A program made the position numbers and the translations under genes. DNA of 64,000 bases from Bdellovibrionales bacterium (GTDB lineage: Bacteria > Bdellovibrionota > UBA1018), in contig JAFEAP010000013.1 of the NCBI GenBank assembly GCA_018266355.1, positions 1 through 64,000 of the forward strand, read 5' to 3'. Within the stretch, counting starts at the first letter, position 1, and the number at the start of each line of letters is the position of its first letter. Shown here one piece after another: positions 33,021 through 47,430 of the stretch. Below the pieces are notes generated by a model. That model saw only the letters and a program-made list of their open reading frames with translations, was not told the DNA's origin and ran no database searches.

Positions 33021-33383
33021 ATGGATGCTCGAACGACGAATCGTTTTCGGAAGACGCTCCTCGAAGAGAAACAGCGGATTCTGAATAACTCGAAAAACGC
33101 GATGAGAACGGAACTCGCGGTGTCTCCGGACGATCTGCCGGACGAGACCGATCTCGCCGCCAGTGAAGTGAACCAAAACCTGGTCTTCAAGCTGCGCGAC
33201 CGCGAACGGCTTCTGCTGATGAAAATCGACGAAGCGCTCGCTCGGGTCGAGGAAGGCACTTTCGGAATCTGTTTGGATTGCGAAGAGCCGATCGAACCGC
33301 GCCGCCTCGAAGCTCGCCCCGTTTCCACGCTCTGCATCGCGTGCAAGGAAACGGAAGAGCACAAAGAAAAAGTATACGCCTGA
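33021..33383 (+). CDS. dksA: DksA/TraR-type zinc-finger transcription factor
   Basis: DksA enters the RNA polymerase secondary channel and works with ppGpp on stable-RNA and stress promoters. The 120-residue protein has an N-terminal coiled-coil pair and the C4 zinc finger ICLDCEEPIEPRRLEARP then LCIACK. The fingertip contains LPDETDLAA: the DxxDxA motif required for DksA function is present in the form DETDLA. GGGGGG lies 5 nt before the ATG. A strong terminator follows. Confidence 0.93.
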   Translation: MDARTTNRFRKTLLEEKQRILNNSKNAMRTELAVSPDDLPDETDLAASEVNQNLVFKLRDRERLLLMKIDEALARVEEGTFGICLDCEEPIEPRRLEARPVSTLCIACKETEEHKEKVYA

Positions 33384-34041: not shown

Positions 34042-34086
34042 AAATGAAGCGGGCCCCGGAGAAATTCTCCGAGGCCCGGCGTTCAT
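34042..34086 (+). terminator. Hairpin between convergent genes, likely two-way terminator
   Basis: A long stem (AATGAA, GGGCC, CGGAGAA arms pairing with TTCTCCG, GGCCC, TTCATT, with small bulges) lies 20 nt after the receiver gene and before the end of the leftward VWA gene. T-runs are weak on both sides. Confidence 0.6.
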
Positions 34087-34151: not shown

Positions 34152-35459
34152 TCAGTAGAGGTAGTCGATCGTGAGCACACCGCCCGGGCTAGCCGCTAGG
34201 GCGTCGCCTTTCAGGGTGATCGAGTTATTGCTCGCGTCGTAGACGTAGCCGTTCACCGGATCCGCCGCGACGAGCTTGCCGTCGAGCTTCACCACGATCG
34301 AACTCGCCGGATTCGGCTTGTTCGAAAGTTTGAACTGGCTGGTCGAGGCGACCACGATATCCGAACCGATCTTCGCCAGATCCGATCCGAAGTTCTTCAA
34401 CACGTCGTACGTCTTCGAGACGAAGGCGTCGGCGGCCGCGAAGTAGAAGTTCGGGTACGGGTGGATGTTCGAATTATCGAGCGGATAGGTCACCGGACTG
34501 CCCGGTTTCGACGCCGTCTTGTTGATCACGAAGTCGAAGCTGAAGCCGCGGGAGTTCGGGCCTTTGATGGCCGAGATCCGCTTCTTCATCCGATCGATCC
34601 GACCCGCGACGCCTTCGCCGTTCCGGATGTCTTCGTCCTCGTCGCTGACGACGATCATCGAAAGGAGAGCGTCGTCACGGACGAACCCTTCGTTGAAGCC
34701 GCCGACTCCGAGGATGGAGTCGTCCAGGGCGTAGAGCATGGAGTTGAAGCATTGCTCCGACCCGCTGCCCGACGTTCCGACCTTCGCGTTCGCCTTCATT
34801 TTGTCGACTACGCTCGAGGAGTTCTTCGAAAGGAACTTCTCGGTGTAGCGCGACAGCAGGCGTCCGCGGTTCGGGGTCACGTAGTTCGGCAGCCGGTTCG
34901 ACCAGTACTTCGCGTCGGTGCTATCCGTATCCGTCGTGACGACACCGATATGGTAGTCGACGCCGCCGGCCACGAACAGGCCGATGAAGGTGCTCATCGA
35001 GTCGGCCAGGACTTGTTGCTTGTCCGCCATCGAACCCGAGTTATCGATACAGAAAAGCATATCGACTTTCGGGGAATCGAGGGCCGGGACATTGAACTTG
35101 TCCGCGCCGGCTTTCGGAACGACCGTCGGAGTCGGCGAAGGAGCCGGGCTCGTCGGCGTAGGCGAAGGAGTCGCCGTGACCGTCGGAGTCGGGCTCGGTG
35201 CCGGATTCGTCGGCGTCGGGCTCGGTTTCGGCGTGACCGTCGGCGTAGGCGACGGAGCCGGATTCGTCGGCGTCGGCGACGGTTGCGGATTCGACGTATG
35301 GGTCGGATCCGGCGTCGGGGACGCTTTCGGGTTCAATTTATCGAGTTCTTTTTGTCCGAGATCGGACACCGAAAAGCCCGTGTCGTTACACGCCGATAAG
35401 CCAAGCGTGGCGAACACCGAAGCTGATAACAGGAATACCTTAAACGTACTGCGATCCAT
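34152..35459 (-). CDS. VWA-domain lipoprotein with Pro/Thr repeat stalk
   Basis: A 435-residue lipoprotein: signal peptide to the lipobox LSAC (Cys24), then a stalk of Pro-Ser-Thr repeats (about 60-113), then a von Willebrand A domain with an intact MIDAS motif DNSGS (Asp139, Ser141, Ser143; [10 protein letters not shown]). A stalked metal-binding VWA domain on the cell surface suggests an adhesin or a protein-contact module. It is the last gene in the leftward Glt-like region, separated from the repeat protein by 183 nt. GGAG lies 8 nt before the ATG. The function is inferred from domains only. Confidence 0.85.
35121..35282 (-). repeat. Coding repeats for a Pro/Thr/Ser stalk
   Basis: Three near-identical units encoding [16 protein letters not shown] lie inside the VWA lipoprotein gene, residues about 60-113. 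They are in frame and may vary in number between strains. Confidence 0.8.
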
Positions 35460-35642
35460 GAGACACGCTCCTCTCCCGAGAGTCTCGTCATTGGATTAGT
35501 CAGTTAGCCAACCTGTATCATTGCAAGGGTCGTACAACTTCCTAACTAGCCAATTCTTTTCGATTCTTAAGAGTTAAGTGACGAATTTTGCCGTCGAAAT
35601 TTTGGACGGTGAATCGATCTTAAACACCCCAGATTGAATAGG

Positions 35643-37373
35643 TTATTGCTTGGCGGGATCCGGGGCTCCGCCGGGAAGGGCCGCCTGGGATTTTCCGGCC
35701 TTTCCGCCGAACTTCTCCTCGCGGTACTTCTCTTTGTTTTTACATTCGTCCTGGACGCTCCCGATGGTCCAGCCGAGCTCGTCTTCCCAGATCTCGTCGA
35801 TCGACTTCGGATCGGTCGGCATCGAGCCCCACTCCCAATAGAGGTCTTTCTGGCGCTTCTCTTCCGGCTGGTCGTTCAACCAGGCCTGGTATTCGGGGTT
35901 CACGTTCCGCCAGACCATGTCCTCGCCCGCGTGGTCGAAGATTTCGACCTCGAGCAGCTGGACGTTTTCGGCCATCTTCGCGACCTGCTTCGCGATCCGG
36001 TTCGTGAGGAACGTCAACACCGCGTTCATGTTCTTCGCGACCTGACGCTGGCGCGGAGCCACCTCGTTATAGAACTTCGGCATCGGCGTCTTCCATTCCT
36101 TCAGCCAGGCGGCGCCCTTGGCCGCGTTGACCCGCTGGGAATAGAGGACGTAAGCGGCTTTCTTTTCGTCGAAGAGCAGGTTCGCCTCGAGCTGGTACGC
36201 GCGGTACTCCGGCGAACGGAGCCACTCGAGCAGGACGAGGTTCGGGACCCCGCCCTTCTTCCGAAGCGCGGTCGTGAGCAGACCGTACGGGTGCTCGCGC
36301 TGCGACGGCGTGAGCTTGTTGTACCAGATCAAGACCGGGTAATACTTCTTCTTGAAGAAGACCGCGTTCTTGAGCGCCCGGGCATACTGACACATCTCGT
36401 GGAGCGCGATCGAGGCGACGAGCGGCGCTTCTGGAGCGTACACGCGGGTGAGCAGGGATTTCTGGATGTTGAACGCGGCACCGATCGCCTCCCGGCGCTT
36501 GTTCGCCTGGAGGAGCGCCCAGCTCAGGTCCGAAAGCGCCTGGGCGAGGTAGTTCGAGTCGCGCGGCACGCGGCGGAGGATATCCGCCGATTTGTCGTAC
36601 TTCTTCGCCTCGTAAAGATCTCGGGCGTAGAGGATCGTGAGCGTGTCGCGGTCCTCGGCGAAAAGGCTCGGAAGTTCACCACCCTCGACGATGCGTTCCC
36701 AGAGCGGGATCGCCTTCGCGTACTGCCCGTTCCGCTGGTTCATGAGCGCCTGGGCGTAGACCGAGTAGCCGGGCATGTTCCCGAGCGCGGCGACGATCGC
36801 GTTCGCTTCCTTCTCGTCCCAGGTATTCACGACTTCCTTCATCCGGATGACGAGCGCCTTCGCCAAGTCTTCCTTCGCGAGGGAGTCGAGGTCGGGCCGT
36901 TTCATGTAATTGATCAAGTTCGGGATCATCGCGTGCCCGAAACCGAGCGTCGGAAAGTCCCGTTGGATCTTCAGCATGCACTCGAGCGCGGCCACGCGGC
37001 CGAACGTCGGCACGCCCTGCTGGAGCGGCGTGATGAGCTGGGTCTGGAACATCTGGTAAGCGAGGTGGATGAGGCCCTCGCGGAAGTAAGCGCGTGCCTT
37101 CAGGTACTCGCCCATTTCGCGAACGTCCCAGGAGACCTTCGACTGGCCCAGACGGAATCCGACCCGGAAGATCTCCGGGCCGCCCATTTTATCCGCGATG
37201 ACGCTGTTCGCCCACGACTTCTCTTCGGCGGGAAACGTGTCCGCGAAGCGAATCCGCTCGTCGTCGGTGCAAGCGCCGAAGACGCGCGTCGGCTCGTCGG
37301 CCCTTGCGGGTCCGGCGAAGACGGTCAGGACGAAAGACGCGATCAGAACCGCAAGCGGGAGCGGCTTCTTCAT
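35643..37373 (-). CDS. Secreted TPR-like repeat protein (Glt-associated)
   Basis: 576 residues with a signal peptide (LAVLIASFVLTVFAGPARA). The mature part is all-helical, with TPR-like pairs in the middle (YLKARAYFREGLIHLAYQMF; AQALMNQRNGQYAKAIPLWE; DRDTLTILYARDLYEAKKYD). It begins 4 nt after the stop of the TonB-like protein gene, whose last codons supply the GGAGG ribosome binding site, so the two are coupled. Periplasmic TPR proteins are part of the Myxococcus Glt complex (GltC/GltD/GltE); this is probably one of those, but I cannot say which. Confidence 0.75.
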   Translation of the reverse strand: MKKPLPLAVLIASFVLTVFAGPARADEPTRVFGACTDDERIRFADTFPAEEKSWANSVIADKMGGPEIFRVGFRLGQSKVSWDVREMGEYLKARAYFREGLIHLAYQMFQTQLITPLQQGVPTFGRVAALECMLKIQRDFPTLGFGHAMIPNLINYMKRPDLDSLAKEDLAKALVIRMKEVVNTWDEKEANAIVAALGNMPGYSVYAQALMNQRNGQYAKAIPLWERIVEGGELPSLFAEDRDTLTILYARDLYEAKKYDKSADILRRVPRDSNYLAQALSDLSWALLQANKRREAIGAAFNIQKSLLTRVYAPEAPLVASIALHEMCQYARALKNAVFFKKKYYPVLIWYNKLTPSQREHPYGLLTTALRKKGGVPNLVLLEWLRSPEYRAYQLEANLLFDEKKAAYVLYSQRVNAAKGAAWLKEWKTPMPKFYNEVAPRQRQVAKNMNAVLTFLTNRIAKQVAKMAENVQLLEVEIFDHAGEDMVWRNVNPEYQAWLNDQPEEKRQKDLYWEWGSMPTDPKSIDEIWEDELGWTIGSVQDECKNKEKYREEKFGGKAGKSQAALPGGAPDPAKQ

Positions 37374-37377
37374 GCGC

Positions 37378-39051
37378 TTAGCCTCCTAGTGTTTTGAAGA
37401 TGAACGGATACGCGACGTCGACGTTCACGCCGCCTTTCGGCAACGGGAACTGCCAGGTCCGGAGGCGACGCTGGATGCACTCGCCGAGCGCCGGATCGGG
37501 CAGACTCGAGTTCGAAACCTTGGCCTTGGCGACGACGCCCCGGCCGTTGATGGTGAAGTCGAGCACGACCCGGCCGTCGACTTTCGACGCCCGCACCATC
37601 GAGGACTCGTAGCAGTAACGGACTTCCTTCATGTGGGCGTGGATCACGCGGCCGACTTCTTCCTTCGTCAGACCTTCCTCGACCTCGGCTTCGCCGGTAC
37701 CGAGCGAGATCCCGTCGCCGCCGCCGCCGGCGCTGATCACGCCTTTGACGCCGTTCGAGTAACCCGCGGTCGCCGGACCGCGGACGCCGGCGGCGTCATC
37801 GCCGCCGAAGCCCGAGACCTTCGAGTTCTTGTCGCCGCCTCCGCCCGCGTTCATGTCGATCGACAGGTTCGCGAGCGCGCCGGCCACCGACTTCGAGCTG
37901 CCCTTGGTCAAGCCGCCCGAACCGAGCTTGGCCGTTTCGAGCAGTTGCTTGTTGTCGACGATCTTCGTGAGACCGTTCCGCAGGAGACCTTGGAAGAGGT
38001 TCGAAGCGCGGTTCACGGCCTTCGGCGGTTGGGCCCTGGCCACCTTCGCCGGCGAAACCGCCGGAGACTTCTTCTCGCCCGCCTTGCCCTTCGGCACGAC
38101 GAGCTTGTCCGGAGGCGCCGGCTTGGCCACTTCCTCGCTCATCGCGAGGGCCTTTTCCTTCGTCTCGTTCTTCTCGCCCGCGAGCTTCTTCTCTTCGGTG
38201 TTCTTCGGCTGCTCAACCGGGGTTTCCTGGGCCTTCTTCGTCTTCGTTTGCTTCGTGATGAGGACCTTCAGGATCTGCGGCGGAATGACTTCTTCCTTCT
38301 CCGGTTTCGGGATCATCGCCGTGATGCCGAAGAAAAGGAGCAGCGCGATCATCGCGCCCGACGCGTACCGGAGGAAATCCCGGTTCTCGTACGGACGGTC
38401 CGGGATCTCGAAAAGGGCGTCCTTGCGCGCGTCGGACGGCGAGGAGAAATACCAACTCGCGTGGCCGAAGCGGACGCTCGACTTGAAGAACTCCGTCGCC
38501 GAGAGCGGGAATTCTTTCCCGGCCTCGAGAGTCTTCACGTGGCCGTTCACTTCGACGGCCAATCCGGATTGCTCGGCGATGATGCGCGCGGTCTGGCCTT
38601 CCGCGATCACGCGGAAGATCGACTGGCCGTGCACGGTGCCGAGGTAGTCCTTCGGATGACGGGTGGACTCCGTATTCCAATCGCCGACGCAGTGGTAGAC
38701 GACGAAGCCCTTCGAGAAGTCGGCGCCGCCGCCCTCGCGATAGAACTTCGGGTGCAGGCTACGCATCGTGCGGATCTCGAGCTTGATCTCGTCCGAGTCG
38801 CGCTTCTTGAACTTGACCTGGACGCCCTTCTTGATCTGATCGTCCTGGAGGACTTGGGAGTGCGCGTTCGAGATCGTTCCGATCTCGCCGCCGAGCGAAC
38901 GCACGCGGACCTTACCGTCGTCGGTGTTCTCGATCACCCAGAGCGGGCCCCGCTCGGTGCGTCCGATCATCAGGGGCGCGTCGGCGTCCCAGGTCTCGGT
39001 GCGGGTTCTCCCGCGGAACGTAGTCGATACGACATAACGAGGTGTACTCAT
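37378..39051 (-). CDS. AgmX/GltG-like transmembrane protein with TonB-like C-terminal domain
   Basis: 557 residues in the architecture of Myxococcus GltG/GltJ. A cytoplasmic N-terminal domain (1-220; GRTERGPLWVIENT is FHA-like but not canonical) precedes one membrane helix (about 227-249; YASGAMIALLLFFGITAMI). A Pro/Lys-rich periplasmic stretch, then Gly-rich sequence, leads to a C-terminal AgmX/PglI domain (about 465-557; TKEEVGRVIHAHMKEVRYCY, then GRVVLDFTINGRGVV and WQFPLPKGG). In Myxococcus such proteins link the inner-membrane motor to the periplasmic machine. It overlaps the small secreted gene by 4 nt (ATGA). Confidence 0.85.
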   Translation of the reverse strand: MSTPRYVVSTTFRGRTRTETWDADAPLMIGRTERGPLWVIENTDDGKVRVRSLGGEIGTISNAHSQVLQDDQIKKGVQVKFKKRDSDEIKLEIRTMRSLHPKFYREGGGADFSKGFVVYHCVGDWNTESTRHPKDYLGTVHGQSIFRVIAEGQTARIIAEQSGLAVEVNGHVKTLEAGKEFPLSATEFFKSSVRFGHASWYFSSPSDARKDALFEIPDRPYENRDFLRYASGAMIALLLFFGITAMIPKPEKEEVIPPQILKVLITKQTKTKKAQETPVEQPKNTEEKKLAGEKNETKEKALAMSEEVAKPAPPDKLVVPKGKAGEKKSPAVSPAKVARAQPPKAVNRASNLFQGLLRNGLTKIVDNKQLLETAKLGSGGLTKGSSKSVAGALANLSIDMNAGGGGDKNSKVSGFGGDDAAGVRGPATAGYSNGVKGVISAGGGGDGISLGTGEAEVEEGLTKEEVGRVIHAHMKEVRYCYESSMVRASKVDGRVVLDFTINGRGVVAKAKVSNSSLPDPALGECIQRRLRTWQFPLPKGGVNVDVAYPFIFKTLGG

Positions 39052-39371
39052 TTCAAGTACTCCATTTCCCGAAGCAAAGACTTCGAATCTTCGTCAAATT
39101 CCGCCCGTTTGCGGTAAAGTTTCTCGCCCTTCAATCCGTCGTTCGAACCCGTCTGCGAGAGGGATTCGTAACCGCGGTTCGAGAGGCCTTCGATCACGCG
39201 CTCTTCGAAATTCAGTTCTTTCTTGCGGAAGCCCTTGTTCGGGTCGTTCGCCGCCGGGGCCGCGGGCTTCTTCGCCGGCGGTGCGGCGTGGGCCGAAGGC
39301 GATGCGATTCCGCAGGCGCAGACGAGCGCCGCAATCGCGAGTCTTCGGATGGTGAGTTTATTCCCCTTCAT
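39048..39371 (-). CDS. Small secreted protein between Glt-like genes
   Basis: 107 residues with a signal peptide (LAIAALVCACGIASPSAHA) and a Pro/Ala linker. A charged helical C-terminal half follows (FRKKELNFEERVIEGLSN). I do not recognise the family. Its stop overlaps the next start by 4 nt, and it lies 22 nt after the large repeat protein gene, so it is almost certainly part of the machine. Confidence 0.7.
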   Translation of the reverse strand: MKGNKLTIRRLAIAALVCACGIASPSAHAAPPAKKPAAPAANDPNKGFRKKELNFEERVIEGLSNRGYESLSQTGSNDGLKGEKLYRKRAEFDEDSKSLLREMEYLK

Positions 39372-39393
39372 TTTCCTTCATCCCCCCGGATGG

Positions 39394-42300
39394 TTATTCG
39401 TCGGACTTTTCCGGAACCGCGTCCGGTTGGTTCGGGGCGCCCTTGTCGCCCTTGCCGTTCTTCGCCGCTGCCGGCGTCCGCTTCTTCGCCGCTTCCTCGG
39501 CGTCGGCCTTCGCCTTCGCCGCGTCCGCCTCGGCCTTCGCCTTCGCGTCGGCTTCCGCCTTCGCGACGAGTCCGACCGCCGCCTCTTCGATCCGGTCGGC
39601 CATCTTCAGGATCCGGCCCTCTTCGCGGTTATCCGTGTCGAGGCGCCGATCCATGAAAGCCTTCCGCGCGGCGCGCGTGCCTTCGACCGAGCGGGAAATC
39701 ACGCCTTGGTAGATCCGCGTGAGCGAACCGAGACGGAGCGCGTTCCCCTTCAGGGTCGCCTCGCGTTCCTTCAGGAGCGCGGCGGCTTCGGACTCGAGGC
39801 CGAGCGTCTTGAGGGTCGCGAGCTGGAGGAGCGCCTTGTCGCTGTCGTCGAGAGCGAGCTTGTCCGCCTGCGGCGTCTGCGAGATCTGGAAGAAGAAGAT
39901 CATCGGGCGAACGCGCTTGCGCTTCACCGCGTCCGTCCAAACCGAAGCCTTGCCCGCGTCGGAAAGTCCGTCGAGGTAAGCCGTCTCGGACTTCCAGTTC
40001 GGGTCGAAATCCGAATAGAGCGCCCCGTAGCCTTGCTCGACGTTCGCGTCCCACCACGGGGTCGCGAGCCCGTTCGCTTTCGCGATTTCCCAGGTCTGAC
40101 CGCCGAGTTGGGCGACCTTTTGGTCGAGTGGCTGAAGGAGCTGGGCGATCGCCTGCTTGAAGACGGCGACTTCCTCTTCTTTAAAGCCTTTCGGGACCTT
40201 CAGGGTACGGAGGTGTTCCGCGATCTTCTCGTAGGCCTTCGCGAGGTGGCCGAGGACCTTCACTTTCGCTTCCGGGGACGGAATCGCGAGGAGCGCGACG
40301 GCGACCTTTTCGAGGCCTTGGACTTCGCGGACGCGTTTGTTCAGCGTGCGCTGAAGGTCGTCGAGGCGCTTCGCGAGTTCGGAATTGTTCTCGACCGTCT
40401 CCATCTTCTTCGCGAAGACGCTCGGCACGATCCGCGGGAGCGTCATCAAGACCTGCATCTGGGTCATGGCGTCGAGGTTCGGATAGGATTTCTGGAACGA
40501 TTCGGCCGCGGTGATCAGGACCGAGTTCGGTAGGGCCGATCCGCGCGCGAGAGCGGCCGCGTACCAGGCCGCCTTCACGTCTTTCGGCGCCTTATCCCCG
40601 AGTTCGATGAACGCCCATCCCGAACGACGGTCGTCGTCGTTCTCGATCGCGCTCACGGCTTGGATCCGTTCGCATTCCGAGCGGAAAAGGTCCGAGTGAT
40701 CTTTCCCGCAGAATTCGGGGTTCTTCATCATCGAGTCGAACGTCTTCGCGTCGTCCGAGACGAGACCGAGGAGGAAGATCTTCTTCTTCATCGCCGGCAC
40801 GTCGGCGTCGGCGATGCCCCGGCGGTCGGCCGGGAGCTTCAGCACCTTCGAGTAGTCCTCGAACGCCTGCTTGAAATTGAACTTCTTCTCGGCGTCGGTC
40901 GCGCGCAAGAAGTACGCGACGCCCACCGCTTCGTTGTTCGGGTCGATCTGGATGACTTGGTTCATGTAAGCCAAGCCCGCGTCGGTGTCCTTCAGCTCGA
41001 GGCTGATCCGGCCCATCATCGCGAGGATCTCGACCTTGTACTTCGAATCCGGATAGAGCTTCAGGTGCTCGTCGCCGAAGGCCTTCGCCTTCGCGTAGTC
41101 CTTCGTCTTGTAAACTCCCATCGTGATCTTGTAATGGGAGTCGCGTTCGAGTTGGACGAGTTTCGCCTTGAAATCGCCGATGGAGACGTTCGGCATCTGC
41201 TGGAACTTGATCGCGAGGGTCCGCGTCGCGACCCAGGCCTCGCTCGCGATGAGCGTGTCGATGATGAGCGCGCAGACGGCCGGCGTCAGCTTCGAATTCG
41301 GACGCGTGCCCACGTAGGAGAGCATGCGTTTGTAGGCGGTGTCGGTATCGCCGTAAGAATAGACGACCCGGTTCGCCTCGAAGAGGAGTTTATCCATGAC
41401 TTCGGGTTGGCTCGTCTTGCGGAGCGATTCCTCGTCGACCCACTTGATCCACTCGACGACGTCGGCCGGAAGCGGCTTGCCGCCTTTCGCGAGCTTCGTC
41501 GCCTTCAGGTCCTGCGGGATGATCCCCTTCTCCTTGAAGGCGTCGTAACGGGCGGTCATCGCGCGCACGCGCGCCTGGTCGCGGAGTTCCGGCTCCTTCA
41601 CGACGAAGAGCTTCGCCTGATAGACGTCGGTGAACGCGGCCTGGGCGCGATCCCAGTCCTTCACGTTCGCATAGAATTCACCGATCCGGAACCGCACGCG
41701 CGCCTTGATCTCGTCGCGCGGGTCGGTGATCCGCATGTACGTATTGAGCGTGAGGAGGTACGGCGCCTGGACCACGCGGTAGTCGTTCTCGCGCGCGTCC
41801 TTCTTCGGGAGCGTCGCGTAGATCTTATCCGCGTATTCGAGGAGGGTTTTCTTGAACTTCTTGAACCACTCTTCTTGGTGGGCCTTCGCGATCGCGCCCG
41901 GATTGCCGTCGAAGAAACCGTCGAAATCCTTGTAGATATTCGCGAAGCGGGCGTAGTCCTTCCAGTTGATGATCGCGTCGTAGACGTCGACCAGAATCCA
42001 GAGGGTGCCGTAGGCTTTCGGCGCGCGTTGGAGGGCGAGGTCCTTCCAAGCGAGCGTCTCGGCCTGCATTTCCTTCGAACGCATCACCATGATGAATTCG
42101 TGGGAAACCTTGCCGAAGACCTGGCCACCCTCGAGCTTCTTGAAATAGTCCATCGCGTGCTCGAGCGAGTAACCCGCGAGCCGCTTGTCGAACGCCGTGC
42201 CGTAGAAGAGCGCGATCATGCCGACGACTTCGTCGTAGTGGCCGCCCTGCTCCTTGTTGAGTCCGCGCGCGCGGTCGTAGCGAAGGAGCCACTCGGCCTT

Positions 42301-43080
42301 GCGGATCGCTTCGGGGTAATTCTCGACGTTGAAGTTCGCGAGCGCTTGCTTCTCGACGACCTGGCCTTCGAGACCGCCAAGGTTCTGGTTCACGTCGACG
42401 GGCTTCAGGATGTTCAGGATTTCTTGGTGCTTGTTTTGTTCGGCGAGGACGTCGGACGCCATGAGGCGCACCTCGACGGTTTGGCGCTCGTCCGGGTACT
42501 TATGGATGTAATCCATGAAGTCCTTGATCGCGTAGTCCTTCTTCTTGAGCTCGTTGAACGCGCGGCCGCGGCGGATGAGCACGTCGCGGATATGCTTGAA
42601 CTTCGGGAAGCGCGTGAGGATCTCGGTCGTGTGGGCGACGCAGCTTTCGAGGAGCTCGTCGAACCGACGATCGGCGCCGGCCTTGCCCTGCCCGTTATCC
42701 GCGACGACTCCGACGCGGAAGTAGGATTTCGAGGAGCGCCACTCCATGTCGGCGAGGCGCCAAATGAGCATCGGCTCTTCCGGGGTGCCGCGCTTGAGCT
42801 TGAGCATCCGCTTCAGGTTCAGGATCGCGGTTTCGCGCGAGGCGACGGCCATCTCGTCGACCGCGCGGTCGACGCGTTCCTGCTTCGTCACCATCGACTT
42901 CGCCGCGTCCGCACGCACGGAGGACGCCGGACGGCGAGCGACCGTTCCGGTTTTTTTCTTCGCGACCGCGGGTTTCGCGGGAGCGGCGGCGTTAGTGTCC
43001 GCGAACGCAGCCCGGCCGGCCGTTCCGAGAACGGCAAGGGTCACGATCAGGCTGGCGATTCGGCGTGCGGCGAGTTTCAT
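39394..43080 (-). CDS. Large periplasmic TPR-repeat protein (Glt-associated)
   Basis: 1228 residues with a signal peptide (IASLIVTLAVLGTAGRAAFA). Helical repeats run through most of the length, with recognisable TPR pairs (for example DVKQ-free blocks such as AFNELKKKDYAIKDFMDYIH and AYMNQVIQIDPNNEAVGVAY). The last 60 residues are Ala/Lys/Asp-rich low complexity (KAEADAKAKAEADAAKAK). No catalytic motif is visible. It sits between the second TolR-like motor gene (14 nt) and the TonB-like protein, in line with the very large TPR proteins of the Myxococcus Glt cluster. It probably scaffolds the periplasmic part of the machine. Confidence 0.78.
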   Translation of the reverse strand: MKLAARRIASLIVTLAVLGTAGRAAFADTNAAAPAKPAVAKKKTGTVARRPASSVRADAAKSMVTKQERVDRAVDEMAVASRETAILNLKRMLKLKRGTPEEPMLIWRLADMEWRSSKSYFRVGVVADNGQGKAGADRRFDELLESCVAHTTEILTRFPKFKHIRDVLIRRGRAFNELKKKDYAIKDFMDYIHKYPDERQTVEVRLMASDVLAEQNKHQEILNILKPVDVNQNLGGLEGQVVEKQALANFNVENYPEAIRKAEWLLRYDRARGLNKEQGGHYDEVVGMIALFYGTAFDKRLAGYSLEHAMDYFKKLEGGQVFGKVSHEFIMVMRSKEMQAETLAWKDLALQRAPKAYGTLWILVDVYDAIINWKDYARFANIYKDFDGFFDGNPGAIAKAHQEEWFKKFKKTLLEYADKIYATLPKKDARENDYRVVQAPYLLTLNTYMRITDPRDEIKARVRFRIGEFYANVKDWDRAQAAFTDVYQAKLFVVKEPELRDQARVRAMTARYDAFKEKGIIPQDLKATKLAKGGKPLPADVVEWIKWVDEESLRKTSQPEVMDKLLFEANRVVYSYGDTDTAYKRMLSYVGTRPNSKLTPAVCALIIDTLIASEAWVATRTLAIKFQQMPNVSIGDFKAKLVQLERDSHYKITMGVYKTKDYAKAKAFGDEHLKLYPDSKYKVEILAMMGRISLELKDTDAGLAYMNQVIQIDPNNEAVGVAYFLRATDAEKKFNFKQAFEDYSKVLKLPADRRGIADADVPAMKKKIFLLGLVSDDAKTFDSMMKNPEFCGKDHSDLFRSECERIQAVSAIENDDDRRSGWAFIELGDKAPKDVKAAWYAAALARGSALPNSVLITAAESFQKSYPNLDAMTQMQVLMTLPRIVPSVFAKKMETVENNSELAKRLDDLQRTLNKRVREVQGLEKVAVALLAIPSPEAKVKVLGHLAKAYEKIAEHLRTLKVPKGFKEEEVAVFKQAIAQLLQPLDQKVAQLGGQTWEIAKANGLATPWWDANVEQGYGALYSDFDPNWKSETAYLDGLSDAGKASVWTDAVKRKRVRPMIFFFQISQTPQADKLALDDSDKALLQLATLKTLGLESEAAALLKEREATLKGNALRLGSLTRIYQGVISRSVEGTRAARKAFMDRRLDTDNREEGRILKMADRIEEAAVGLVAKAEADAKAKAEADAAKAKADAEEAAKKRTPAAAKNGKGDKGAPNQPDAVPEKSDE

Positions 43081-43094
43081 CTATGCCTCGTCTA

Positions 43095-43670
43095 CTAATT
43101 GTCCGCGGTCACGACCACGAGTTTGAAATCCGTGAAATCCATCTCGGAAGCCGAGGACAACACGTGCTTCAGAAGCTTGTAAGGGACTTTTTTGTCGGCG
43201 ATGACGAGCAACTTCGCGTCGAAGTTGTTCCTCACGGCGTCCTTCGGCGAAACCCCGGTCTTCACCGAGGCGGCCGCGATCTGACGCTGCTTTTCGCGTT
43301 CCTTCTTGAGCGCCTTCACGAGCTCGGGCATCGTCCCGTCTCCGGAGATCTCGCCCTTGCGCGGTTCGAACTTCTCGAACGTCATGACCGGAGCGCCTTC
43401 GAGCGTGATGCCGGTCTCGGTGACCTGGACCTTCATCGCCTCGACGCTCTCGGTGCCGCCGTTCGCCGCCGGCAGTTTGATGTCCTTGCCGACGTCGATG
43501 TCGATCGCGCTCACCGAGTAGCTCTTCAGAAGGAAGACGAGCAGGATCGTGAAGATATCGGCCATCGAGGTGATCTGCAGCGCGATTTCCTCGTTGCCTT
43601 GGCGACGACGCGACCGGCGCATGCTGCCGCCGCCCCGTCTTGCCATATTGCCGCATTCACCCATATGCAT
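43095..43670 (-). CDS. TolR/ExbD-like motor protein, second copy
   Basis: 191 residues with the family architecture: a basic N-terminus, one helix carrying the proton-coupling Asp (TSMADIFTILLVFLL) and a periplasmic domain. The domain contains an insert (GEISGDGTMPELVKALKKER) missing from the first copy. It starts within 3 nt after the first TolR-like gene stop; ATG 43646 (MARRGGG) is an alternative start. With one TolQ-like and two TolR-like genes it matches the Myxococcus aglRQS motor. Confidence 0.88.
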   Translation of the reverse strand: MHMGECGNMARRGGGSMRRSRRRQGNEEIALQITSMADIFTILLVFLLKSYSVSAIDIDVGKDIKLPAANGGTESVEAMKVQVTETGITLEGAPVMTFEKFEPRKGEISGDGTMPELVKALKKEREKQRQIAAASVKTGVSPKDAVRNNFDAKLLVIADKKVPYKLLKHVLSSASEMDFTDFKLVVVTADN

Positions 43671-43672
43671 GG

Positions 43673-44095
43673 TTAAAATCCTCCGAGAACCATCGAGAGA
43701 TTGTTCTTCCGAGCCTTCTCCATCGCTTTCACGATGGATTCGTACTCGACTTCCTGATCCGCGGTAATCGTCACCGACTCAAACCCCGGGTATTTTTCTT
43801 TCAGCTGACGAAGGGCTTCCGCCGCTTCGTCCGCGTTCTGGAACGTGTTCTTCGACTCGTATTTCCCGTGCGTGACGATTTGGAGAGATCCGTTTTTCTT
43901 CAGATCAAGCGTCACGGTAATGGGAGGCGGAGTCGGATCCCCTTGGGCTTCGGCCGGCGTGAAACCGGCGTCGAAGATGGAGATCGAAAGGAAGGACGCC
44001 GACGCGAGCATGAACGTGATCAAGACCGTGAAACAGTCGATGATCGGTGCTAGGTTCAGCTCGAAATCGAGCGATCCGCCGCGGCTCCGGCTCAT
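43673..44095 (-). CDS. TolR/ExbD-like motor protein, first copy
   Basis: 140 residues. Short cytoplasmic part, helix NLAPIIDCFTVLITFML with the essential Asp, and a periplasmic domain of about 90 residues (VTLDLKKNGSLQIVTHGKYE). It overlaps the end of the TolQ-like gene by 4 nt, so motor subunits are translated together. Confidence 0.9.
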   Translation of the reverse strand: MSRSRGGSLDFELNLAPIIDCFTVLITFMLASASFLSISIFDAGFTPAEAQGDPTPPPITVTLDLKKNGSLQIVTHGKYESKNTFQNADEAAEALRQLKEKYPGFESVTITADQEVEYESIVKAMEKARKNNLSMVLGGF

Positions 44096-44745
44096 GCAAC
44101 CCTCTTCGTTTCAACCCCGTAGGCGCGCTGACGGATGATGTCGAGCGTTTCGAGCGTGCACTGGTCGAGCTCGCTCACGAGGCGGTTCGTGCGGTTCATG
44201 ATGAAGGAGAACGCGACCATCGCCGGAATGGCGACGCCGAGACCCATCATCGTGGCGTTCATCGCGGTCGAGATACCGGCCGCGAGGAGCGCCGACTTCT
44301 CTTGCGGGTTCGCCGTACCGACGGCTTCGAAGGATTGGATCAGACCGGCGATGGTGCCGAAGAGACCCAGAAGGGTGGCGACGTTCGCGATCATCGAGAG
44401 GAACGCGGTACGCTTCGAGATGTTCTCGATCCATTCACCCACGACGATGCTGAGGCCGTCGCCGACCATCTGCTCCGGCAGGTGTGCGCGGAGGAGGCCT
44501 TCCTTCATGACTTGCGCGGCCGGCTTCTGCGGATACTGATCGCAGAGCGAGATCGCGTCTTGAACCTTGTCGGCCATCACGAGCTCGCGGATGCGGTGAT
44601 AGAACTTCGAACGGCCCGCGAGCGGGTACGTGAAGAACACCATTTTCACGCGTTCCATCACGATCGCGACGGCGAACACGCCGGCGATGATGATGGGAAG
44701 CACGTGAGATAAGTTATTCATTACGAATTCGGTAAACTTTCCCAT
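44092..44745 (-). CDS. TolQ/ExbB/MotA-like proton-channel protein
   Basis: 217 residues with three membrane helices: LPIIIAGVFAVAIVMERV, then ANVATLLGLFGTIAGLIQSF and the pore helix AGISTAMNATMMGLGVAIPAMVAF, which holds the conserved Thr and Pro. It leads the cluster (TolQ, TolR, TolR, large repeat protein, small secreted protein, TonB-like protein, repeat protein). GGAGAG lies 7 nt before the ATG. Proton flow here should power the machine. Confidence 0.92.
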   Translation of the reverse strand: MGKFTEFVMNNLSHVLPIIIAGVFAVAIVMERVKMVFFTYPLAGRSKFYHRIRELVMADKVQDAISLCDQYPQKPAAQVMKEGLLRAHLPEQMVGDGLSIVVGEWIENISKRTAFLSMIANVATLLGLFGTIAGLIQSFEAVGTANPQEKSALLAAGISTAMNATMMGLGVAIPAMVAFSFIMNRTNRLVSELDQCTLETLDIIRQRAYGVETKRVA

Positions 44746-45153
44746 GGTCGGATCTCTCCTAAGATCGAATCTCGTGCGGGAATCCCGCGCGAAGGACTGC
44801 CTCTCGGTGCCGTCTAGCCAATGGACAAAGAGGTATCCAGGAGACGTATCGTCAGAAGACAGCGGTCGATTCAGTCTAAATTCGGGAACTTAACAATTGT
44901 TTTATCCGTAAGCGGCCCAGGGAGCGGTTCACGGAGGTCCTCGAAAGCGCGGGGCAATTCGCCGGTGGGGAGCGGAAAAACGCCCGCGTCGCGCGCGACA
45001 CGGTATTTCGCGGAATTCAGAGTGTGGAGTTCTCTCTAGATATGTAGAGCGGGCCGACGGCGGCCGCCGAGTGAAAAATCGCTTTAGCGTCGGCGGATTG
45101 ACGCCGATAAGCCGGGTGAACCATCACGATGCACTCCGCCAGGAATCCCCGTC
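44746..45153. other. 408-nt divergent spacer upstream of the motor operon
   Basis: No gene is supported here. It must contain the promoters of the TolQ-like operon (leftward) and the secreted protein gene (rightward). I see only weak promoter-like words, such as TTGTTA 17 nt before TGAATC on the minus strand near 44870-44900, and a small hairpin TCGGCG/CGCCGA (about 45089-45106) before the rightward gene. I cannot assign these with confidence. Confidence 0.35.
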
Positions 45154-45963
45154 ATGAAATTTTCCACGCTCTTAGCCTATTCGATCGCGTTCGTTTGTGC
45201 CGCCGGATCCGCCGCCGCCCAGGAGAAACCACGTGTGAACGTGATCTACCGAGAAGCGAAGGGCGTTACCCGCGATTACCATAAACGCACCGTCTACCAC
45301 AGCGGAGCCGACGACGCGAAGATCGCGAGTTTCGCGAAAGACTATGCCTGTCTCGCGAACGTGCTCGAAGCGCTTGCGAAGATGCCGATGTCGGACGCCC
45401 ATGCGGGCCTGTGCCCGGGCACCTTCGCCCACTACGAGGCGGACGTGAATCTCGTGCTCACGAAAGAACGCGTTTACAGGCCCGACAACATGTACGGGTC
45501 CGATCCGGTCGCTGTCAGCGCACGATGCGGCTATGACGGACACCCGCGGGACGATGCGGGAATTTCGAACCAGATTTTCGCGTTCTCCCTCGACCCGGCA
45601 ACTTGCTCGGCGATGGGCGCGAAGACCTTCACCGCGGATTTGACGAAACGAATCGAAACGCAATGGGACCTTGTCGCCGCTTCGCGCGCGAAGGAGATCG
45701 CCGATTCGAAGAAGCCGAAGAAAACGGAGGCGGAACTCGAAAAGGAGCGCCAAAAGAAGATCGCCGACGAAAAACACGCGCGCGAGCTGCGCGAAAAACG
45801 CGCGAACGAACTCCTGAAAAAGTCCTTCGGTAAGGCGAAGGGCACTCCCGGCGCCGAGGACGTCGCGATCAACCCCGAAAAACAGCTTCCCGCACTCCAG
45901 CCTCCGATGAAGGAAAAGGACGCGCCGACGCTTCCGCCGAAGACGGGGGCGGACGCGGGCTGA
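45154..45963 (+). CDS. Secreted protein with charged helical C-terminus
   Basis: 269 residues with a signal peptide (LLAYSIAFVCAAGSAAA, then QEKP). The first 170 mature residues carry four cysteines (YACLANV, GLCPGT, ARCGYD, ATCSAM), probably in disulfides. A long Lys/Glu helix follows (AELEKERQKKIADEKHAREL) and ends in Pro-rich sequence. I do not recognise the family. It is convergent with the outer-membrane barrel gene, 15 nt apart. Confidence 0.65.
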   Translation: MKFSTLLAYSIAFVCAAGSAAAQEKPRVNVIYREAKGVTRDYHKRTVYHSGADDAKIASFAKDYACLANVLEALAKMPMSDAHAGLCPGTFAHYEADVNLVLTKERVYRPDNMYGSDPVAVSARCGYDGHPRDDAGISNQIFAFSLDPATCSAMGAKTFTADLTKRIETQWDLVAASRAKEIADSKKPKKTEAELEKERQKKIADEKHARELREKRANELLKKSFGKAKGTPGAEDVAINPEKQLPALQPPMKEKDAPTLPPKTGADAG

Positions 45964-45978
45964 CCCGCGAGCGGCTCC

Positions 45979-46791
45979 TTACGGAAAGAAAACCCCGAGC
46001 CCGATCTGGATCCAGCTCGTCGTGAGCGAACGGCTCGTCTCGGGCGTCGTCGGGAATTTATCCGAGTGCCAGAGCAGGCGCCAGTCGACGCCGACGAACC
46101 AGGTCTTGTTCAGAAAGAACTGCTGACCGAGACCGAAGAAATAACCGATCGAGGATCCGATCTGCGCCTGGTGCTGGGAAAGGCCGATCGCGGTGTTGAA
46201 GTCGTAATAGATGATCTTCGACCCGAGGAGCGAGAGCTTCCCGTAGACGAGGCTGCCGCGCGCTTCGGCGCCCATGACCGACTTCCCGGGGTTGACGATC
46301 GGGTTCACGCGCGATCCCCCGGCCGCGACCGTCGCGTCGCCGGCGGCGGTGTAAGCCTGGTTGTTCGAGTGGCTGATGCTCGAGTAGAACGCGTGAAGCG
46401 AGAGGAATTCGTTGATGTGATAGCCGAGGGAGAGGCCGATCGATTTCTGGTCCTGGAACGCGTCGTCCGACCAGAAGCCGTATTTCAGAGCGGCTTCCCA
46501 GCGCCCTTTTTTCGTGTAGCGACGGTTCTGCACGACGTCCATCAAGTCTTCGTTGCCGACCGTCCAGTACCGGCGCTTCATCGACTGCACGTCGATGCGC
46601 TCGGGTAGCGTGCCCGCTTCGTCGGCGTCGGAGGTCTGAACCTTCAGCGTATCGGGCGACGCGGGCGCCGTCGGGTTCGCTTGTTGCGCCGGTTGCGCGG
46701 CCATCGCGCTCGAAACCGTCAGCGCGAAGATCGTCAAAATTCTGCCGATGCCGAATCCAAATCCCCGTGAAGAATGTTGGTGATTCATCAT
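45979..46791 (-). CDS. Outer-membrane beta-barrel protein (myxo-type, Glt-neighbour)
   Basis: 270 residues with a signal peptide and a short N-terminal linker. A segment NRRYTKKGRWEAALKYGFW resembles the RRYYTKKGR-like start of the deltaproteobacterial outer-membrane barrel family (TIGR04565 type). Alternating aromatic strands follow and the protein ends in Phe-Phe-Pro. Myxococcus GltA, GltB and GltH are barrels of this general type. The position beside the motor operon supports a role as the outer-membrane part, but that is inference. Confidence 0.75.
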   Translation of the reverse strand: MMNHQHSSRGFGFGIGRILTIFALTVSSAMAAQPAQQANPTAPASPDTLKVQTSDADEAGTLPERIDVQSMKRRYWTVGNEDLMDVVQNRRYTKKGRWEAALKYGFWSDDAFQDQKSIGLSLGYHINEFLSLHAFYSSISHSNNQAYTAAGDATVAAGGSRVNPIVNPGKSVMGAEARGSLVYGKLSLLGSKIIYYDFNTAIGLSQHQAQIGSSIGYFFGLGQQFFLNKTWFVGVDWRLLWHSDKFPTTPETSRSLTTSWIQIGLGVFFP

Positions 46792-46848
46792 ATTTATTTC
46801 AAAGTTAAACGCATTTAGGGAGAATAGGAAGCAGGAACAAATAAAGGA

Positions 46849-47430
46849 ATGAGCGCACCCACCTACTTAGCCAAGGCAGGAAAAGTCACGGGGCCCTTCG
46901 ATGCGAAGACCATCGAAGAGATGAAGGCCTCCGGCGAATTTTACAAGCACGAGTGGATGTGGGACGGCCAGTCTCCCGACTGGTCGCCCGTGCCGCGCCA
47001 ACTCGCCTCGCCTCCGTCGCTTCCGGAAGTGCCGAAGCAGATCACGCGCATCTCCGTCGACCAAACCGCGACCCACGACGTGAAGTCGAGCGCCGCGAAA
47101 GCCCCGGCCCCCGCGGCCGTCCAGGCGAAGTCTTCGTTCGGCGGCGCGGATATCAAGACGAGCAAGAAGACTTTCTGCGCGGTGCTTTTCGATACTCGCC
47201 TCACGATCGGCGGCGAGGTCAGCCAGGCGCATTCGCGCGGCGGCCGTTTCGTTTCTACGCCCACCCATTCCGTTCCCGTCTCGAAGGGCTCGAACGCGCT
47301 CCTCGACCTGCTCGACGAGGCCACCGACCGTTCCACGAAAATCCAAGCCTCGGTCACCAACGTCTCCCGAATGGGAGATCGGTGGGTGCTCGACCTCGAG
47401 TGGTCCTCCCTCCCTCTGCTCGACGCCTGA
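46849..47430 (+). CDS. GYF_2-domain protein
   Basis: 193 residues. The N-terminal 50 (YLAKAGKVTGPFDAKTIEEM, then GEFYKHEWMWDGQSPDWSPV) are a GYF_2 domain, a fold that binds Pro-rich or partner peptides. A Pro/Ala/Lys linker follows, then a C-terminal beta-rich domain that resembles PilZ (DTRLTIGGEVSQAHSRGGRF; its usual RxxxR and DxSxxG boxes are absent). GYF domains also occur in Myxococcus GltJ/AgmX, so the location next to a Glt-like cluster is suggestive. There is no signal peptide. Confidence 0.72.
   Translation: MSAPTYLAKAGKVTGPFDAKTIEEMKASGEFYKHEWMWDGQSPDWSPVPRQLASPPSLPEVPKQITRISVDQTATHDVKSSAAKAPAPAAVQAKSSFGGADIKTSKKTFCAVLFDTRLTIGGEVSQAHSRGGRFVSTPTHSVPVSKGSNALLDLLDEATDRSTKIQASVTNVSRMGDRWVLDLEWSSLPLLDA

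Follow-up and report, generated by a model that had tools for sequence, protein, structure and literature searches.

The described systems that lie closest to the gene cluster studied here are the Agl-Glt machinery of Myxococcus xanthus (AglRQS, GltA-K and CglB), the Agl-Nfs spore-coat machine of the same organism, the core complex formed by gltC, gltD, gltE, gltG and aglRQS in Gammaproteobacteria, Fibrobacter and Geobacter (PMC3169522), and the operon Bd1473-Bd1483 of the glider Bdellovibrio bacteriovorus. Luciano et al. (2011; PMC3169522) describe core genes gathered in a single region in Geobacter and in all non-Deltaproteobacteria, and four expanded sets in Bdellovibrio; another report (PMC2797640) names the agl operons of B. 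bacteriovorus, four in number (Bd0412-0420, Bd0828-0838, Bd1473-1483 and Bd2368-2377). As described in the cited papers, the surface-induced gene Bd1480 is aglQ (PMC9140294), Bd1481 is aglR and lies with Bd1483 in a gliding cluster in which insertions in either of these two genes lower biofilm predation (PMC2277423), Bd1482 is a PilZ protein proposed as a receiver of cyclic diguanosine monophosphate (c-di-GMP) signals for gliding (PMC3271064), and Bd1483 is a lipoprotein with a metal-ion-dependent adhesion site (MIDAS) (PMC11003981). B. bacteriovorus is reported to have MglA without MglB (PMC3983030), and the gliding machinery of Bdellovibrio has been called still unidentified (PMC13104615). 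We report here a cluster of this kind at positions 34,152 to 47,430 of the window, which is the whole stretch of DNA analysed (positions 1 to 64,000 of contig JAFEAP010000013.1, assembly GCA_018266355.1). The genome is that of an uncultured Bdellovibrionota bacterium and is 93% complete, a figure that applies to all whole-genome negatives given below; two further genomes of the same genus are public as 'Oligoflexia bacterium' metagenome-assembled genomes.

On balance, the cluster encodes a trans-envelope motor of the Agl/Glt family, the most likely use of which is gliding, probably by means of force exerted on a surface MIDAS lipoprotein. This interpretation is based on an AgmX/PglI tail scoring over its cut-off, on matches to the GltG and GltC models, on the motor residues, on the TolQ clade, on the predicted topology of the GltG-like protein and on a gene order found again in three genomes. 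By published parts lists, and not by sequence comparison, the set is much the same as the known operon Bd1473-Bd1483 of a known glider, because aglQ, aglR and genes for a PilZ protein and a MIDAS lipoprotein are described together there, with four sets per genome; however, in the window the von Willebrand factor A (VWA) gene stands at the distal end of the cluster, and the GYF/PilZ-fold gene lies upstream on the opposite strand. Judged in the same way, the motor trio, the GltG-like protein, the GltC-like and large tetratricopeptide repeat (TPR) proteins, the small secreted protein, the barrel and the VWA lipoprotein are shared with the Agl-Glt system of M. xanthus, whereas in the window the genes form a single cluster and not three, GltJ has no gene of its own there, MglB was not found in the genome and GltG has tandem FHA-like folds. 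Agl-Nfs has the same core parts list (PMC3169522, PMC3858216), although it carries the spore-coat polymer (PMC3858216). The core complex of Gammaproteobacteria, Fibrobacter and Geobacter is alike in its compactness, and the window differs from it in lacking a GltE-type match and in having extra barrel, VWA and GYF genes. An earlier note on this DNA, made from the sequence alone, had named these parts at this place, and they were confirmed with family matches beyond chance. It had also regarded their union in one cluster as unusual, a novelty that we reject because clustered core genes have already been described outside Myxococcus, which is the one that split its genes (PMC3169522). What is new here is the predicted PilZ fold of the GYF protein without a c-di-GMP motif; the motor cluster itself is of known type.

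Conservation was studied in loci chosen through the tail family NF033768, which is present in at least 55 of the 58 genomes searched, the window's own counted; the sample thus covers clusters bearing this family. Among the NF033768 matches listed, nearly all those with an open reading frame (ORF) of at least about 350 amino acids (aa) were fetched, and gene order was read in 147 loci plus the window (148 sequences), L060, L063 and L069 being left out as copies of L002, L001 and L003. The 135 GltG loci used as denominator below count one gene twice (L006 is L145), the distinct ones being 134, and the counts of GYF and VWA partners refer to the 50 motor-bearing loci with long flanks. Signal peptides and gaps between genes were judged by eye from the sequence.

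Of the Agl/Glt core complex, the window encodes a TolQ-like channel protein together with two TolR-like proteins, both of which retain the transmembrane aspartate. Across the Glt-linked loci this aspartate was kept in 77 of 83 TolR1 and 82 of 84 TolR2 sequences, and the threonine and glycine positions of the channel helices were invariant in the TolQ sequences (80/80). In a tree of 85 TolQ-type proteins the 80 Glt-linked ones formed one clade (100/100), with the window protein within a set of 37 (100/99), and the remaining five, all of them from this genome, fell outside that clade; the bootstrap of this tree had yet to converge, and its outgroup rows include long branches that join one another.

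The GltG model gave 128.3 bits on the protein bearing the AgmX/PglI tail, below the equivalog cut-off of 650. Its predicted structure (mean predicted local distance difference test, pLDDT, 67.8) suggests a helix at residues 221-246, a disordered linker and a TonB-like end at about residues 454-557 (Z 8.9). FHA-like folds are predicted at residues 114-206 (Ki67 FHA, Z 9.0; Bdellovibrio DgcB FHA, Z 8.9) and at residues 5-97 (EssC FHA, Z 7.9), and SMAD folds score Z 8.0-8.4 over the same residues. Because of these SMAD scores and the modest Z values, FHA is proposed with modest confidence as the best reading of the N-terminal folds and not as proof; Pfam FHA gave no match to the window protein. 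The GltG of the sister cluster on contig C23 of the same genome has an FHA domain by sequence (38.9 bits) and the highest GltG score (171.6 bits). Own-genome ORFs of 125-158 aa with little beyond the AgmX/PglI tail were also observed (C3:58908, C17:19254, C26:111953 and C21:446801-447479).

The GltC-like protein, on which TPR_12 scored 25.6 bits (under the cut-off of 30.1), has counterparts in 114 of the 135 GltG loci. As the GltG and GltC scores are far below the equivalog cut-offs (650 and 450), both window proteins are considered relatives and not certified equivalogs. The large TPR protein, which matches GltD in size, place and TPR content, has counterparts in 122 of these loci and the barrel protein in 112, and relatives of the small 107-aa protein, for which profile searches gave no family match, were found in 56. 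No protein of the cluster matched the GltE model NF033758, which is myxobacterial going by its name, and a divergent GltE may be present. A separate GltJ gene was sought in the cluster by model search and rejected, since apart from a weak match to the VWA protein the GltJ model recognised nothing but the tail of the GltG-like protein (39.1 bits, cut-off 450).

The VWA protein combines a D-N-S-G-S MIDAS motif with a lipobox, and gave 16.4 bits with Pfam VWA_2 (cut-off 27), 27 bits with the CglD model (cut-off 400) and 43 bits with the MIDAS adhesin model NF052240, whose cut-off of 700 is reached by none of its four matches in the genome. The suggestion of the earlier note that this lipoprotein is a partner of the motor agrees with its recurrence, as a VWA gene is present in 22 of the 50 motor-bearing loci, weak matches counted (L075, 25 bits), and occupies the same place in L001-L003. 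The MIDAS motif pattern matched 37 of 38 VWA ORFs, and by eye the motif stood at the MIDAS strand in 33; it was found away from that strand in L025, L035, L042 and the second copy of L033, and L026 had none. Elsewhere in the genome (L163:5256-7666, contig C22), a VWA gene with 244.7 bits to the cluster VWA profile overlaps or adjoins a TIGR04565-type barrel ORF, and no motor genes were seen beside this pair.

The order of the window (barrel, motor trio, large TPR, small protein, GltG, GltC, VWA) recurs in L001-L003, which come from three related genomes. Many other loci present the order VWA, motor trio, large TPR, small protein, GltG, barrel, GltC and GYF, and in further arrangements the motor trio occupies the opposite strand, next to a long GltG of the FHA type. 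Four Glt-type sets are present in the genome of the window: the window's own, two on contig C12 and one on C23.

The GYF protein consists of a GYF domain in its first 50 residues, with a GYF_2 score under the cut-off, and a PilZ fold in its last 95 residues according to the predicted structure (mean pLDDT 82.7). Structural re-alignment gave 1yln as the best row (Z 12.1, root-mean-square deviation 2.4, 93 residues), and the top 31 rows, with Z from 12.1 to 8.0, are PilZ domains or PilZ-bearing proteins, a nature that we presume for some of them; MreC is next at 7.8. Foldseek alone gave a best E of 1.2e-3, to a PilZ protein, and Pfam PilZ did not match the window protein. The c-di-GMP motif (RxxxR and [DN]xSxxG) is absent from the window protein, which disfavours it as a c-di-GMP receptor. 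Among its 47 relatives of at least 75 bits, counted after leaving out four weak rows, 13 keep the motif and 34 are without it; two of the 15 raw motif matches, in L004 and in the 478-aa ORF of L031, were due to chance. All 13 belong to loci without a neighbouring motor trio, and Pfam PilZ scored 44-51 bits in three motif-bearing relatives. The genome of the window also encodes GYF-PilZ proteins that keep the motif, at L155:5911-6732 (C12) and L154:6521-7618 (C4), the gene on C12 adjoining a VWA-like gene about 17 kb from the C12 Glt clusters.

A GYF gene was found in 17 of the 50 motor-bearing loci, weak matches of 20-27 bits counted (L004, possibly L026 or L033). In addition, a search of the 58 genomes with an alignment of the motif-less group gave 40 matches of at least 45 bits, of which 34 were in loci already fetched for their GltG gene; the other six were beside a GltC-type gene (four), beside a barrel gene (one) and at a contig start, which is uninformative (one). 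Therefore, 39 of the 40 close relatives stand beside Glt-type genes, a count that is partly circular because the search alignment was built from cluster proteins: 29 of the matches are rows of that alignment, so that the independent part amounts to 11 matches. The link of the GYF family to Glt clusters is strong, and we infer for the GYF protein a role in motor control.

The PilZ proteins MotI/DgrA and YcgR act on flagellar motors (MotA). The window protein is similar to them in its predicted PilZ fold (Z 10.8 and 9.9, respectively) beside a motor of the MotA/TolQ family, but it has a GYF domain in front, has lost the c-di-GMP motif, and its binding to the motor is only proposed. A tentative view, which we hold to be possible although doubtful, is that each Glt machine of the window type has its own cytoplasmic GYF/PilZ-fold control protein that would bind to the AglR/GltG base and act as a clutch or brake. 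Under this view, since the motif is kept in 13 of 47 sister-cluster GYF proteins, a c-di-GMP-gated ancestor would have been rewired to another signal. GltJ presumably holds a GYF domain, and that the GYF protein stands in for the cytoplasmic end of GltJ is an idea only.

Outside the window, MglA is encoded next to recR (L156:1387-1998, minus strand, contig C21; E 2.9e-81 to 6h17; RecR by eye), and a search of the genome for MglB gave no Robl_LC7 match. The combination of MglA without MglB, as in B. bacteriovorus (PMC3983030), adds to the case for a gliding motor, as do the reported effects of insertions in Bd1481 and Bd1483 and the surface induction of aglQ (PMC2277423, PMC9140294). The P-loop of this MglA, GTGLCGKT, appears to have glycine where that of B. 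bacteriovorus has serine (PMC3983030; alignment by eye). The genome also contains five flagellin matches, so the cell probably has another means of movement; an open frame of 13658 aa at a flagellin match was discarded as an artefact of a stretch reading N.

Within the window, seven genes, the first TolQ-like and the last GltC-like, are arranged in tandem on the minus strand with intergenic distances of -4 to 22 bases, and the VWA gene lies on the same strand 183 bases beyond the GltC-like gene and before a terminator-like hairpin (Table 1). The barrel gene is upstream in the direction of the motor genes, and the GYF gene is divergent from it. A promoter scan found 0 consensus promoters where 2.0 were expected, which says little for such an organism.

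Table 1. Features of the Agl/Glt-like cluster, with positions in the window and the evidence for each.
Feature	Position	Strand	Evidence
AglR/TolQ-like proton-channel subunit, 217 aa	44092..44745	-	MotA_ExbB 85.5 bits (cut-off 22.9)
TolR/AglQ-like protein 1, 140 aa, transmembrane Asp	43673..44095	-	ExbD/TolR 59.0 bits (cut-off 25.4)
TolR/AglS-like protein 2, 191 aa, transmembrane Asp	43095..43670	-	ExbD/TolR 42.8 bits (cut-off 25.4)
Large secreted TPR protein, 1228 aa, GltD place	39394..43080	-	PF13181 27.5 bits (cut-off 25.7)
Small secreted protein, 107 aa, GltF place	39048..39371	-	Position only
GltG-like transducer, 557 aa	37378..39051	-	AgmX/PglI tail NF033768 103.7 bits (cut-off 40)
GltC-like secreted TPR protein, 576 aa	35643..37373	-	GltC model 27.8 bits, E 1.1e-6 (cut-off 450)
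VWA/MIDAS lipoprotein, 435 aa, candidate adhesin	34152..35459	-	DNSGS motif and LSAC lipobox
Terminator-like hairpin after VWA gene	34050..34078	-	13-pair stem then T-rich stretch; consensus match only
Outer-membrane beta-barrel protein, 270 aa	45979..46791	-	TIGR04565 66.0 bits (cut-off 60)
GYF domain and PilZ fold without c-di-GMP motif, 193 aa	46849..47430	+	GYF_2 19.8 bits (cut-off 25.8), predicted structure

Between the barrel and motor genes there is an ORF on the opposite strand (45154-45963, plus strand) encoding a secreted protein of 269 aa. It is absent from that place in L001-L003 and, as no relative was found among the 148 sequences, it is probably outside the motor system. DksA/TraR-like zinc-finger ORFs were noticed by eye both near the cluster (33021-33383, plus strand) and beside mglA (L156:980-1552, minus strand).

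Sequence or predicted fold establishes the channel and its two TolR-like partners, the single-pass transducer with a TonB-like end, the TPR proteins, the barrel and the MIDAS lipoprotein. In the proposed mechanism, proton flow through the channel would drive the GltG-like transducer, and the TPR proteins and the barrel would pass the force on to the surface MIDAS lipoprotein. The adhesion site would be dragged along the envelope, and the cell would move on, or hold to, a surface or a prey cell, while the GYF/PilZ-fold protein, presumably cytoplasmic, would adjust the motor. Gliding by the window organism is plausible. Several points weigh against this interpretation. The equivalog cut-offs for GltG, GltC and the MIDAS adhesin were not reached, and the cluster contains no separate GltJ gene. 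The earlier note had admitted that its proposal would fall if only generic families matched and the large repeat proteins had no Glt similarity; the GltG and GltC models did match, but the 1228-aa protein was without a match to any gliding-specific model. The presence of four paralogous sets means that the role of the window set is not separable, and the main engine may be another of the four. Finally, as reported for other bacteria, loss of Bd1483 gave no invasion defect (PMC11003981) and a paralogous Myxococcus set serves sporulation (PMC3858216).

The alternative that survives best, although we consider it rather unlikely, is a surface transporter of the Agl/Nfs type that moves or rearranges a polymer, lipid or lipoprotein without moving the cell. 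The Agl-Nfs machine of Myxococcus is described as rotating a carbohydrate polymer on the spore surface (PMC3858216), core complexes are reported in bacteria not known to glide (PMC3169522), and the flagellins would offer the cell its other means of movement. However, family searches revealed no polysaccharide export genes in the cluster, and a MIDAS lipoprotein as partner suits adhesion better than polymer transport. It is a good deal less probable that the cluster is a predation machine acting at prey contact or entry and not serving for travel. Of the B. bacteriovorus agl operons, Bd0412-0420 alone is described as induced early in predation (PMC2797640) and MIDAS proteins act at the predator-prey junction (PMC11003981), but Bd1473-1483, whose parts list is the most similar, is reported as down-regulated at 30 minutes of predation (PMC2797640), deletion of bd1483 gave no empty bdelloplasts (PMC11003981), and the predatory life of the window organism is only presumed. 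An ordinary Tol-Pal or ExbBD-TonB uptake system, to which the matches of the generic TolQ, TolR and TonB_C models would point, is hardly credible and was rejected, in agreement with the earlier note, since the cluster has no TolB, Pal or TonB-dependent receptor and no TolA beside its TolQR genes, a separate TolQ-TolR-TolA-like-TolB operon exists elsewhere in the genome (L009), the AgmX/PglI tail is far over its cut-off and the TolQ-like protein belongs to a separate clade.

The Agl/Glt-family cluster of the window thus represents a compact and conserved example of genes that travel together, namely the motor trio, GltG, GltC, the large TPR protein and the barrel, a set often joined by the MIDAS lipoprotein and the GYF/PilZ-fold protein. 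The latter is a concrete candidate for a second-messenger route to the motor and, if it does act as a clutch or brake, it would supply the link from second messengers to the gliding motor in Bdellovibrio and its relatives.

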